Shown here piece after piece: positions 2,663 to 10,474 of a stretch of 42,771 nucleotides of DNA. Within the stretch, counting starts at the first letter, position 1; every line of letters starts with the position of its first letter. The translations under genes and the position numbers were made by a program. The DNA comes from a virus. The stretch covers positions 1 to 42,771 of the IMG/VR virus record IMGVR_UViG_3300030117_004193; one strand, 5' to 3'. Below the pieces are notes generated by a model. It searched no databases. It was not told where the DNA came from and worked only from the letters and a program-made list of their open reading frames with translations.

Positions 2663-3283
2663 ATGTTATTTGAAAGAAATTTGAAATACTTAAACGACAA
2701 TAGAATATTATACAGACGTGATCCTATCAGTGATATACCAACAGAAAGATACAATTGGGGTTGGTATTATGAAGACGGAACTTATGAATGTTATGCTCTA
2801 TTTCGTAGTAAAGCTAAGATAACTACGTATAAATCTCTTAAATGGCACCTATTAGTGCTATGGTATCTTAATCCTAAAATGACACACTCTGATTTTGATA
2901 CACTTGCAGAATTTATATGTAATAAAGAAAATGGCTTTATAACATTCTATTGTCCTAAAAGAATACAAGAAAAGATAATTGATGAATGTTATTTATATGA
3001 CCAAGAAGAACCACCAAAAAATAAATTAAGAAAAATTATATTCAGAGATAACTCTGGATTAACAACTAAACAAAAACAACAAATAATAGGTAAGTTAATA
3101 GGTAGACAAAAAAAAGCACAACCAGAAGATATATATGAAGCTATGCTGTCTATTAACGATAATAAAGAAAAGATAACAATAAATAAGATTGCTACTATTT
3201 TAAACGTATCTACAAGAACGATTTATAGAAATATAACTAAAGGATTAGTTAACGAAAAATCATTTTTAAATGAAGAGATATAA
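2663..3283 (+). CDS. Putative HTH DNA-binding protein, 206 aa
   Basis: The N-terminal two thirds is a Trp/Tyr-rich globular region I do not recognise. The C-terminus, about residues 165-200, has a helix-turn-helix pattern (KIATILNVSTRTIYRNI) like resolvase or sigma-region-4 type HTHs. It lies directly upstream of, and overlaps by 14 bases, the phage sigma factor gene. A role in transcription control or replication initiation is therefore plausible. The start abuts the previous stop. Confidence 0.65.
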   Translation: MLFERNLKYLNDNRILYRRDPISDIPTERYNWGWYYEDGTYECYALFRSKAKITTYKSLKWHLLVLWYLNPKMTHSDFDTLAEFICNKENGFITFYCPKRIQEKIIDECYLYDQEEPPKNKLRKIIFRDNSGLTTKQKQQIIGKLIGRQKKAQPEDIYEAMLSINDNKEKITINKIATILNVSTRTIYRNITKGLVNEKSFLNEEI

Positions 3284-4025
3284 CGTACAAAACTATATAA
3301 GATATAAAAACGATCTTGATAATAGTTTAATTTTAGCCTCAGAAAATAAATACTCTGAGAGACATACTTTAATAATAGAACACTTACCACTAGTCGAGTC
3401 CGTAGCTAGAAGATTTTCAACGTCCGATCAAGCTTCAGGTGTACTTAGTATAAATGATATGATACAAGCAGGCTCAGAAGGTTTAATATTAGCTATAGAC
3501 AGAATTGATTGGGATGTAGTTAATGAATCAGATGACCCGCTTAAAACTTTAAATTCATTTTTAACTAAGAGAATAAGAGGCGCAATACGAAGAGAGATTG
3601 ATATAAATAGGGGTAACATGCGTATACCTGAATATAAGTTAAATGAGATTAGAAAATCTGATGGTGGCGATAAGAAGATAGTACAAATGTTTTTTAACAG
3701 TATATTTTCTAGCATAGATATTGAATATGAAAATGAAGAAGACAATGTTGCAATGCAGGTACCTGATACAAGTAAACAATATAATATTGATATTATAAAT
3801 AAATACTTATTAGGTTTGATGAAGGCGAATCTATCTGAAAGAGAATATGATGTACTACGTATGAGCTATGGGCTTGATTGTGATAAAATGAGTGCAAAAG
3901 ATATTGCACATAAACTTAACATAGAAGGCACTGCCAACTACGTTCGCGTTTCGCAGATAAAACGAGACGCTATTGATAATTTAATTAGAACAGTTGATAA
4001 ATCACAAGTATTAGATTTTTTATGA
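3270..4025 (+). CDS. Phage RNA polymerase sigma-70 family factor, 251 aa
   Basis: It redirects host RNA polymerase to phage promoters. Region 2 spans about residues 38-110: LPLVESVARRF, then INDMIQAGSEGLILAIDRID, then FLTKRIRGAIRREID. This contains the core-binding and -10 recognition helices. Region 4 spans about 187-240, starting LSEREYDVLRMSYGLD and ending in a recognition helix around NYVRVSQIKRDAIDNL. Region 1.1 is absent and the linker is short, as in group 3 or phage sigma factors. It overlaps the HTH gene upstream and shares an ATGA with the secreted protein downstream. It probably drives middle or late phage genes, perhaps those of the minus-strand block. Confidence 0.9.
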   Translation: MKRYNVQNYIRYKNDLDNSLILASENKYSERHTLIIEHLPLVESVARRFSTSDQASGVLSINDMIQAGSEGLILAIDRIDWDVVNESDDPLKTLNSFLTKRIRGAIRREIDINRGNMRIPEYKLNEIRKSDGGDKKIVQMFFNSIFSSIDIEYENEEDNVAMQVPDTSKQYNIDIINKYLLGLMKANLSEREYDVLRMSYGLDCDKMSAKDIAHKLNIEGTANYVRVSQIKRDAIDNLIRTVDKSQVLDFL

Positions 4026-7918: not shown

Positions 7919-8220
7919 TGGGTGGAACTGTAAGACCGTTAGATGTTGGTAGAAAAAGAAAGAAAGGCGTTATGGGAACATACTTCCCAACTCCTGAAGA
8001 AATAAAAGCATCTAATTGGTGTATTAATAATAATGTAAGAATATCTTACAAACCTGAAACTACAGGTTCAAGACCAAAATGTTGGTATATAACTATTAAT
8101 ATAGGCCCATACAAAAAAGGAGAAAAAGCAAATGTTTCACCTGAATGTTATAAACCAGGTGAATGTCAAAAACAAATGTATAAAACTTGTTTATATTATT
8201 ATGAGAAATATAGAAAATGA
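7918..8220 (+). CDS. Conserved-looking hypothetical protein, 100 aa
   Basis: Basic start with GGTVRPLDVGRKRKKG, a middle part containing WCINNNVRIS and WYITINIG, and a C-terminal CYKPGECQKQMYKTCLYYY. Four Cys residues could bind a metal, but spacing does not match a known zinc finger. It lies between the primase-helicase and thymidylate synthase genes, overlapping the latter by 20 bases. Function unknown. Confidence 0.7.
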   Translation: MGGTVRPLDVGRKRKKGVMGTYFPTPEEIKASNWCINNNVRISYKPETTGSRPKCWYITINIGPYKKGEKANVSPECYKPGECQKQMYKTCLYYYEKYRK

Positions 8221-9034
8221 ATATATAGGTTTAATCTCTGGTATATTATACGGAGGTAAAGATAAAGATGATAGAACAGGGACAGGCACAAAATCTGTGT
8301 TTGGTAGAATGTTATATCATGATATGAAAGTTGGCTTTCCTTTATTAACAAAAAAGAAAATAAATTTTAATAATGCAAAAACAGAATTACTTTGGATTCT
8401 CCAAGGTCGAAGCGACTTGGATTATCTTCTTGATAACGGCGTCCGCTATTGGCTTGATGATTATAAACGATCTAATAGGACTGATAGAAAACTTGGTCCC
8501 GTCTACGGTCATCAGTGGAGGAAGTTTAATGGCATCGATCAATTACAAATGGTTCTTCAGGAGCTTAGGAAAAATCCCTCCAGTAGAAGACTCATGGTTT
8601 CAGCTTGGAACGTTTCTGATCTTCACGATATGGTATTGCCTCCTTGTCATGATTCTTTCCAGTTATATTATAACGAAGGTAAACTGGATTTAATGTGGAG
8701 ACAAAGAAGTGCAGACGTATTTCTAGGTTTACCATATGATATAGCAATGTACGGATTGTTATTAGAATTAATTGCCGATGGTTTTAATATGAAACCTGGC
8801 AGATTAATCGCTAGCTTAGGTGATTGTCATTTATATAATAATCATTTAAAACAAGCAGAAGAATATATTGCAGCTAAGCAATATGATTTACCTAAATTAA
8901 AATTAGAATGGGGTGGTATTAAATTAAGAGAGGGTGCTAACGACTTTGTATTTATACCTCCTAATGATACAATTAAAATTGAAAATTATAAGCATAGCCC
9001 TTTAATTAAGGCTAAGTTATCAGTTGGAAAATAA
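8201..9034 (+). CDS. thyA: Thymidylate synthase ThyA, 277 aa
   Basis: Methylates dUMP to dTMP using methylene-tetrahydrofolate. The catalytic Cys lies at residue 149 in LPPCHDSFQLY. The flanking phosphate-binding Arg residues are in DDRTGTGT (R25) and SSRRLMVSAWN. Substrate residues lie in MWRQRSADVFLGLPYDIA and the C-terminal SLGDCHLYNNH. Length fits the classic enzyme (264 in E. coli). A longer in-frame start at 8132 exists, but the ATG at 8201 matches the family N-terminus. The segment about 8395-8665 uses CTT/CTC leucine codons and is GC-richer than the rest of the gene. Confidence 0.96.
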   Translation: MRNIENEYIGLISGILYGGKDKDDRTGTGTKSVFGRMLYHDMKVGFPLLTKKKINFNNAKTELLWILQGRSDLDYLLDNGVRYWLDDYKRSNRTDRKLGPVYGHQWRKFNGIDQLQMVLQELRKNPSSRRLMVSAWNVSDLHDMVLPPCHDSFQLYYNEGKLDLMWRQRSADVFLGLPYDIAMYGLLLELIADGFNMKPGRLIASLGDCHLYNNHLKQAEEYIAAKQYDLPKLKLEWGGIKLREGANDFVFIPPNDTIKIENYKHSPLIKAKLSVGK

Positions 9035-9040
9035 AATATT

Positions 9041-9787
9041 ATGAACGAAGTATATTATATTTATCATATACCTAATAAAAAAATTGGCGTTACACGTGAT
9101 TTAAATAATAGAGTTACGCTTGTGCAGGGCTATAAGCCTGGAGAATATGAAGTTCTAGATTCTTCATCAGATATTAATTATATATCAGATAGAGAAATAG
9201 AGCTTCAAAAAATCTATGGGTATACGGTTGATAGAACACTATATAAGAATTTAGTAAATAAAATGAAGATAAATGCAACAGAGCAAACCTCAACATTTCC
9301 ATTTCCTAAAAAAGATTTACATAAAAATCTTAAAAAGAATTTAGGACATACATGGAAAACTTCACTAGGCGAGTTTGAAATATCCGATGATACAATTAAA
9401 TGGATTAAAGAAAACTCGTATACATCAATGTATGATAAAGAACGTAGTTATATTTATAATAAAGCATACTACGAAGCTTTCATAGCTGAGAGTGTACCTA
9501 TCTTTGACTTAATAAGACAATGGGCAAAAGATAGAGATATATATGAAAAAGGCGATAAGAAAACACAATTAATAAAACTATATGAAGAAACAGGAGAACT
9601 ATCCAAAGCTATTCTTGACAATGACAAAGAAGGCGCTATCGATGCTATTGGTGATTGTATTGTTGTTCTTACTAATCTCGCCGAGTTTACCGGCGTATCT
9701 ATTGAAGCTTGCATGCAGTTTGCTTATGATGAGATTTCTAATAGAACTGGCAGAATGATAAACGGAACATTTGTAAAAGATAAATAA
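9041..9787 (+). CDS. GIY-YIG-like / MazG pyrophosphohydrolase fusion, 248 aa
   Basis: Two domains. The first 70 residues resemble a GIY-YIG fold, with YIYHI at about 6-10, KIGVT at 14-18 and the conserved Arg at 24, followed by an acidic EIELQ. The canonical GIY and YIG triplets are degenerate, so nuclease activity is uncertain. After a linker, residues 155-240 form a MazG-type NTP pyrophosphohydrolase with the metal site KLYEETGEL (E182, E183, E186) and DAIGD (D201, D205). MazG enzymes remove non-canonical or excess nucleotides, or hydrolyse (p)ppGpp precursors. It lies among dNTP-metabolism genes. Confidence 0.82.
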   Translation: MNEVYYIYHIPNKKIGVTRDLNNRVTLVQGYKPGEYEVLDSSSDINYISDREIELQKIYGYTVDRTLYKNLVNKMKINATEQTSTFPFPKKDLHKNLKKNLGHTWKTSLGEFEISDDTIKWIKENSYTSMYDKERSYIYNKAYYEAFIAESVPIFDLIRQWAKDRDIYEKGDKKTQLIKLYEETGELSKAILDNDKEGAIDAIGDCIVVLTNLAEFTGVSIEACMQFAYDEISNRTGRMINGTFVKDK

Positions 9788-10047
9788 TGAAAGTAAGAGA
9801 TAAAGTAATAGAATCAGTAATAAATAAAATCATTCAAAGATCTGATGTTGGCTATAAAAAATACGGCATAACATTACATAAGGATGATCAACCATTAGAT
9901 ACATGGCTACAACATATTCAAGAAGAATTAATGGATGCAGTTAATTATATTGAAAAAACAAGACAAGCATTAAGATCTGAAATTGAAGAGATGTATCTAA
10001 AAGATATAGAACTAAGACATGAGAAGAACTTACAAGAGGAGGAGTAA
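9787..10047 (+). CDS. Small MazG-like/dGTP-diphosphohydrolase-type protein, 86 aa
   Basis: The pattern YKKYGITLHKDDQPLDTWLQ followed by HIQEELMDAVNYIEK matches small phage proteins annotated as dATP/dGTP pyrophosphohydrolase or MazG-like, in which the EE..D helix binds metal. The C-terminal 25 residues are a charged helix. It shares one base with the previous stop. Having two all-alpha pyrophosphohydrolase-like proteins side by side suggests a special need to trim the nucleotide pool. Confidence 0.65.
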   Translation: MKVRDKVIESVINKIIQRSDVGYKKYGITLHKDDQPLDTWLQHIQEELMDAVNYIEKTRQALRSEIEEMYLKDIELRHEKNLQEEE

Positions 10048-10474
10048 AAAGAAAGGCCCTGTAAGATCAAACAAAGTTGAATACGATGGTTTTACTTTTG
10101 CTTCTGGATTAGAAAAGTATATGTATCAAGCGTTAAAAAATGCAAAAATACGTGCAAAGTATGAAGGCGAAACATTTGTTTTGTTAAACGGTTTTCATTT
10201 TGATAATGAAGTTTACGAAAGACAATCTAATTCTAAAGGAGATTTTATGAATAGAGGTGAAAAAAGAATATTACCTATAAAGTATACACCAGATTTTATT
10301 GGTGAAAACTTTATAATAGAAACTAAAGGTAGGCCTAATGAATCATTTCCTATTAGGTGGAAGCTATTTAAAAAATTAGTTACTCAACAGTTTCCTAATT
10401 ATATTTTATTTAAACCGCAAAATCAAAAAGAATGCGACAAAGTAATAGAGATATTGAAAAGCAAAAGAAAATAG
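10019..10474 (+). CDS. PD-(D/E)XK endonuclease (DUF1064/T7 endonuclease I-like), 151 aa
   Basis: After a very basic start (residues 2-17), FASGLEKYMYQAL at about 27-39 supplies a conserved Glu. Then YTPDFIG gives Asp 92, and IIETKG gives Glu 101 and Lys 103. Together these form the PD-(D/E)XK site. The FxSxLE start is typical of DUF1064 phage endonucleases, which are placed near recombination and branch-resolving enzymes. It may resolve DNA junctions or degrade host DNA. It overlaps the previous gene by 29 bases. Confidence 0.82.
   Translation: MRRTYKRRSKKKGPVRSNKVEYDGFTFASGLEKYMYQALKNAKIRAKYEGETFVLLNGFHFDNEVYERQSNSKGDFMNRGEKRILPIKYTPDFIGENFIIETKGRPNESFPIRWKLFKKLVTQQFPNYILFKPQNQKECDKVIEILKSKRK

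Follow-up and report, generated by a model that had tools for sequence, protein, structure and literature searches.

A GIY-YIG–MazG fusion gene beside a predicted dCMP-specific enzyme in uncultured phages, with a possible role in cytosine modification

We describe a phage gene in which a GIY-YIG domain of the T5orf172/MUG113 branch, a middle domain, and a MazG domain are joined in a single chain, an architecture that we regard as nearly certain. The gene lies in the IMG/VR virus record IMGVR_UViG_3300030117_004193, of which we analyzed a window (the whole stretch of DNA considered here) of 42,771 bases at 31% GC. Domain assignment and gene context together suggest that the gene serves two steps, the making and the guarding of cytosine-modified virus DNA. 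The joint reading, which places the fusion in a phage cytosine-modification cassette with a dCTPase, a nuclease half acting like endonuclease II (EndoII), and two products from one gene, is tentative and in our judgment falls somewhat short of an even chance; its parts differ in strength and are weighed separately below.

The window comes from a tailed phage, likely with a Bacteroidota host, because the nearest relatives of its terminase include Flavobacterium and Cellulophaga phages, which follow a podovirus-type environmental genome as the closest match (62%). The fusion-bearing family as a whole probably comprises phages of Bacteroidota, found among uncultured and mostly aquatic viruses. 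Its contigs come from such viruses and some may be incomplete, and all results given here are computed from sequence. The window also carries a phage sigma factor gene (3270-4025, plus strand; Sigma70 regions 2 and 4, PHROG 351), directly after the gene of an HTH protein (2663-3283). The features discussed are as follows.

8201..9034, plus strand: upstream thymidylate synthase (TS)-family gene, predicted dCMP methylase-type enzyme by alignment to E. coli ThyA and T4 gp42; Asp codon at 8738-8740 (residue 180, the position of E. coli Asn177), catalytic Cys codon at 8645-8647
9041..9787, plus strand: whole fusion gene, GIY-YIG (T5orf172/MUG113 type) plus middle domain plus MazG, 248 aa
9041..9262, plus strand: N-half, predicted GIY-YIG domain of the T5orf172/MUG113 branch, residues 1-74; conserved Y8, K14, G16, T18, R24, and E52 at codons 9062, 9080, 9086, 9092, 9110, and 9194
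9263..9265, plus strand: junction ATG (Met75), candidate internal start for a shorter, MazG-only protein (174 aa)
9263..9493, plus strand: middle domain, residues 75-151, mixed alpha/beta by model secondary structure
9494..9784, plus strand: predicted MazG domain, residues 152-248; E182/E183/E186 at 9584-9598, D201/D205 at 9641-9655
9787..10047, plus strand: downstream gene of 86 aa, its ATG overlapping the fusion stop by one base

Architecture of the fusion and its distribution

The frame at 9041-9787 is uninterrupted by stops, and at least 311 open frames in relatives (223 distinct) hold all three parts, a count that combines queries by N-half, C-half, and middle domain (best 80 loci per query). 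The combination of a GIY-YIG-like domain and a MazG in one chain, noted in a first-pass annotation of this DNA, is therefore borne out. That annotation had named separate halves in relatives as the observation that would speak against it; among the matches listed (best 80 loci per search, a depth that remote separate halves may escape), the halves occur at no locus as intact separate genes. The exceptions to complete fusion are contig ends or frame breaks inside domains (L083, L133, L066, L028, and L325), together with ordinary standalone phage MazGs. At one of these loci (L133:3848-4530), the GIY-YIG half is shortened, the junction Met is absent, and the C-half occupies a different frame, through natural loss or assembly error.

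The whole chain is absent from all cultured phages in the collection examined, and MW202828, whose terminase is the closest in that collection, has no match to the C-half. A deposited 248-aa viral protein model (A0A516MJS7) matches end to end at 51%. In the open-licence literature searched, neither a GIY-YIG/MazG nor a T5orf172/MazG fusion is described. An AlphaFold2 model of the 248-aa protein (mean pLDDT 89.9) divides into residues 1-74, 75-151, and about 152-248; as the global pTM is low (0.43), the model does not fix the placement of these parts relative to each other.

Residues from about 152 to 248 are certain to be a MazG domain, as judged from profiles, predicted fold, and residue conservation. 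Matches to PHROG 1992 (E=1.7e-35) and PHROG 715 (E=1.7e-29) stand above chance, and in structural alignment S-2L MazZ and S. solfataricus MazG match the predicted fold at Z 9.8, within the range of about 9-10 for solved MazGs overall. The metal sites recognized in the first reading hold up as well, with the EExGE motif (E182, E183, E186) and D201/D205 invariant in 67/67 distinct homologs. In Pfam, the window protein falls slightly below the cut-offs for MazG (20.7 versus 22 bits) and PRA-PH (20.2 versus 21.3), and several relatives pass the MazG cut-off. With respect to the ExxE/ExxD motifs, E183xxE186 and D205 are invariant, and the Glu of ExxD is replaced by Ala202, which follows the invariant Asp201. 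Compared with 1vmg, the second acidic pair is shifted by one residue, D201 standing in for the usual Glu at 202, which counts against our best explanation; a shifted pair of this type is common to Staphylococcus and Brochothrix phage MazGs. One apparent extension of similarity upstream of MazG, in a Staphylococcus phage, crossed a stop and was due to chance.

The middle domain has no convincing PHROG match, is missing from standalone phage MazGs, and is known here solely from the fusion family. Phage MazG-like pyrophosphatases (PHROG 1992, 715), S-2L MazZ, and cyanophage MazG share the MazG fold and acidic motifs with the fusion, but they stand alone or carry other N-terminal extensions, and none was found with a GIY-YIG and this middle domain.

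A dCMP-type neighbor and the predicted substrate of MazG

The gene upstream of the fusion had been taken at first for a thymidylate synthase. It does belong to that family, and Pfam and PHROGs both call its product thymidylate synthase; yet at E. coli position 177 it has the Asp of dCMP-type enzymes in place of the Asn of dUMP-type ones. Residue 177 of TS sets the choice between dUMP and dCMP, and Asp177 goes with modified DNA in metagenomes (PMC8670742). All 207 relatives with enough upstream sequence have a TS-family gene in this place, 167 of them within 40 nt, and Asp177 is present in all readable neighbors of the window and its relatives; the automatic pattern for this residue failed in 11 rows, ten of which show Asp by inspection or motif context, while the remaining one (L232) ends before the site. 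The neighbors are of two types. The ThyA-type (103 relatives) keep His147, where those resembling T4 gp42 and MilA (104 relatives) have Thr, as does T4 gp42; the gp42-type sequences combine Cys-Thr with Asp, and their best PDB matches are CMP and dCMP hydroxymethylases. It is very probable from these residues that the neighbor is a dCMP-specific TS-family enzyme of the Asp177 type.

On a tree of the fusion, the neighbor type switches 16 times, with at least 9 switches forced by supported branches; the exact count is soft, since the protein is short and the tree came from a quick FastTree run. Because the type switches repeatedly, it appears to be the dCMP-type function that is kept. As the fusion gene is retained beside two interchangeable dCMP-type enzymes, the simplest reading is that MazG is a dCTPase that supplies dCMP, as T4 gp56 does. 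The MazG domain would hydrolyze dCTP to dCMP, thereby both removing normal dCTP and providing substrate, and the upstream enzyme would add a methyl group (in the window, where it is ThyA-type) or, in relatives with a gp42-type enzyme, a hydroxymethyl group to dCMP, as suggested by the specificity residue. We consider a dCTPase role in cytosine modification the probable one, because the neighbor is without exception a TS-family enzyme bearing the dCMP-type Asp; in this specific form, the earlier idea that the fusion acts on modified nucleotides can be retained. Cytosine modification itself is the most likely setting, judged from one residue plus gene context.

The other half of that earlier idea, hydrolysis of alarmones, fares differently. 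Although older proposals for phage MazG, as cited in PMC6850273, would have the domain hydrolyze (p)ppGpp, the cyanophage MazG tested there prefers dGTP and dCTP and neither binds nor hydrolyzes (p)ppGpp (PMC6850273), and the genome context of the fusion points to dCMP. We would be very surprised to see an alarmone function here.

Conceivably, MazG might also act in house-cleaning, either in general or on dUTP, next to a neighbor that makes dTMP despite its Asp, in phages without modified cytosine. The database names of the window neighbor would fit such a role, and no PF00692 dUTPase was found in 20 long relatives, each of which has exactly one TS-family gene and only one of which (1/20) has a dCMP deaminase. 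Asp177 in every readable neighbor, and the gp42-like Cys-Thr plus Asp in half of them, closest to dCMP/CMP hydroxymethylases, argue against it and leave it improbable.

Published data place similar genes together. In metagenomic contigs with cytosine modification (MetaGPA), the same Asp177 TS occurs together with a MazG/PRA-PH-like domain, and PF01503, a MazG-like family, is found alongside the TS domain in the contigs that carry modification (PMC8670742). That study links a carbamoyltransferase to its contigs and does not mention GIY-YIG, which the fusion family described here possesses (PMC8670742). The closest functional parallel is T4, where gp56 (dCTPase), gp42 (dCMP hydroxymethylase), and EndoII/DenA make up the same predicted set of roles, and a gp42-type enzyme adjoins the fusion in half of the relatives. 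In T4, these roles lie on separate genes and gp56 is not annotated as MazG, whereas here a nuclease-type domain and MazG share one chain.

Downstream, the 86-aa gene is adjacent in 195/208 relatives and its product matches only PHROGs of unknown function; a QEELMDAVNY stretch in it recalls half of a MazG motif. A gene for a DUF1064/Holliday-junction-resolvase-like nuclease (10019-10474, plus strand) is conserved near the fusion in 208 relatives. In some relatives (L055, L065, and L208), the TS gene and the fusion are separated by the gene of a short protein whose start resembles a signal peptide.

The GIY-YIG half and its possible roles

The first reading likened the N-terminal 70 or so residues to a GIY-YIG domain, and family profiles, the predicted fold, and the alignment with I-TevI all agree with this. 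The window sequence gives little when used alone: the protein meets MUG113 at E=0.13, below the cut-off and a near-absent match, and its N-half found no useful match in Pfam, PHROGs, NCBIfam, PDB sequences, cultured phages, or plasmids, where family alignments alone succeeded. Among 20 family members, all 20 hit the MUG113 profile and 19 the T5orf172 profile at E<=5 (best 7.7e-6 and 1.4e-7, respectively), and 4/7 full-length relatives exceed the Pfam cut-off for T5orf172. The N-half is predicted to fold as b-b-a-b-a (pLDDT 88.6). Comparison of the model with GIY-YIG folds, which the first-pass annotation had proposed, yielded no significant match in a Foldseek search; upon re-ranking by VIA-align, I-TevI takes the top two places (Z 5.7 over 67/74 residues, and Z 5.5), followed by UvrC domains (Z 4.5-4.3), with one unrelated protein at Z 4.4 and Z-scores that are moderate overall. 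A profile comparison of the N-half with full-length I-TevI gave a match judged to be chance.

The residues expected of the active site are nonetheless strictly kept. Tyr8, Lys14, Gly16, Thr18, Arg24, and Glu52 are invariant in 67/67 distinct homologs, and the catalytic Tyr (of GIY), Arg, and Glu correspond to Y8, R24, and E52, an assignment made by alignment and not by an active-site structure; the Arg was thus rightly described as preserved, and the Glu is preserved with it. The second triplet, described earlier as degenerate, is indeed not YIG and is better termed the KIG form. T5orf172 and MUG113 both belong to the GIY-YIG clan, and KIG in place of YIG is usual there. As Z-scores are moderate, it is the combination of sequence profile, fold, and invariant residues that carries the assignment of residues 1-74 to the T5orf172/MUG113 branch of the clan, which we make on profiles and the predicted model.

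The N-half is minimal (74 aa), with no C-terminal Asn and no DNA-binding part. It shares the KIG motif, the Arg and Glu positions, and the short b-b-a-b-a core with other T5orf172/MUG113 domains (PF10544, PF13455), among them that of ICP1 Odn, an active, Glu-dependent nuclease that retains Arg and Glu (PMC8263062, PMC10448857). In Odn, the domain is paired with a DNA-binding domain of RepA type, and homing genes have parts that recognize their targets, whereas the partner in the fusion is a nucleotide hydrolase. Lys codons are AAA in 43-55% of cases in the N-half (9041-9262 and relatives) compared with 81-87% across most of the C-half, and this contrast in codon use may point to separate origins of the two halves.

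Our leading guess, and a doubtful one, is that the nuclease half is active against unmodified DNA. T4 EndoII, itself a GIY-YIG enzyme, breaks down DNA without modified C, while modified T4 DNA is protected (PMC1564403). By the same token, the GIY-YIG domain of the fusion, which has no DNA-binding domain, might function as a small nuclease on unmodified DNA, so that the fusion would put the hydrolase and nuclease functions in one chain; this is the least certain step of the proposed scheme. EndoII is a longer protein that aligns to the N-half over 13 columns only (pairwise E 0.0074), and the likeness is put forward as one of working, not of descent.

Alternatively, the GIY-YIG half could be catalytically dead and serve to dock or to bind nucleic acid, thereby tethering MazG to the replisome or the TS enzyme. 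The near-universal adjacency to TS would suit this, as would the small size of the domain, the Lys in place of the Tyr of YIG, and the missing C-terminal Asn. Yet this Lys is usual in T5orf172, a group that includes an active nuclease, and invariance of Tyr8, Arg24, and Glu52 in all 67 homologs is not what a dead domain would lead one to expect; we consider the docking role unlikely.

It could also be speculated that the N-half is a captured homing nuclease: a free-standing GIY-YIG gene would have inserted downstream of the TS gene and ahead of mazG and become joined to the latter, whose former start would be the junction ATG. The nuclease half would then promote, now or formerly, its own propagation or the rivalry of phages infecting the same cell, and MazG would work independently of it. 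T4 offers precedents, in that I-TevI resides in the td intron and the GIY-YIG homing gene segF overlaps the dCTPase gene 56, so that a GIY-YIG gene lies directly beside a dCTPase gene, as here. SegF is, in contrast, a separate homing nuclease with a recognition part, encoded downstream of gene 56 and unfused. In ICP1, T5orf172 accounts for half of the homing candidates (PMC10448857), and the junction ATG is start-like. What speaks against capture is that the N-half lacks a recognition part and is conserved strictly at one position, unlike patchy homing genes: it is present in all of the at least 311 complete frames, and no relative with an empty site occurs among the matches listed (best 80 loci per search). 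On balance, this origin too seems improbable to us.

The junction ATG and a candidate two-product gene

The boundary between the N-half and the middle domain provides a candidate second start, a feature that the first reading had not noted. The junction Met is kept in 221/222 distinct relatives, mostly eight residues ahead of a T[TS]TF motif, though the linker around it varies in length and letters; the lone exception (L021/L250), which counts against an internal start, has ATT instead. Sequence context was compared among 98 representatives at <80% identity. The 20 bases before the junction ATG resemble those before real gene starts and differ from those before other internal Mets in A content (59%, versus 53% and 40%, respectively), G+C content (11%, versus 19% and 33%), A at -3 (73%, versus 78% and 30%), and fold energy (-0.38 kcal/mol, versus -1.15 and -2.79 kcal/mol).

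A Lys-rich linker accounts for part of this A-richness, but an excess persists against shuffled synonymous codons with protein and codon usage fixed: A is enriched, most strongly at the junction ATG (mean z about +1.1), and folding is slightly weaker. Over the twelve codons before the ATG, Lys is encoded by AAA in 89-98% of cases, against 43-55% farther upstream and 81-87% in most of the C-half. The junction has no evident Shine-Dalgarno signal. Synonymous conservation was uninformative as a test of the internal start, because the entire N-half is raised.

From these conserved signals, it is reasonably likely that the junction ATG is an internal in-frame start from which ribosomes also produce MazG alone, so that hydrolase and nuclease would be made in different amounts. 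The ATG could be a relic of the fusion, a reading disfavored in that a mere relic would hardly be preserved so strictly, and a structural role of the Met is possible. In its fullest form, the proposal is that both arms of base replacement reside in one gene, with a dCTPase acting against ordinary cytosine in the nucleotide pool, a nuclease destroying ordinary-cytosine DNA, and the internal start setting the ratio of hydrolase-only to hydrolase-nuclease product; taken with all its parts, this is speculative and rather unlikely.

The analysis links a nuclease-type domain to nucleotide-pool cleaning within a predicted cytosine-modification cassette of uncultured phages and raises an experimentally testable question, namely, whether the fused nuclease spares modified DNA. 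It also provides a candidate two-product gene with an A-rich internal start that has no evident Shine-Dalgarno signal. The fusion together with an Asp177 neighbor may serve as a marker for phages likely to carry modified cytosine.
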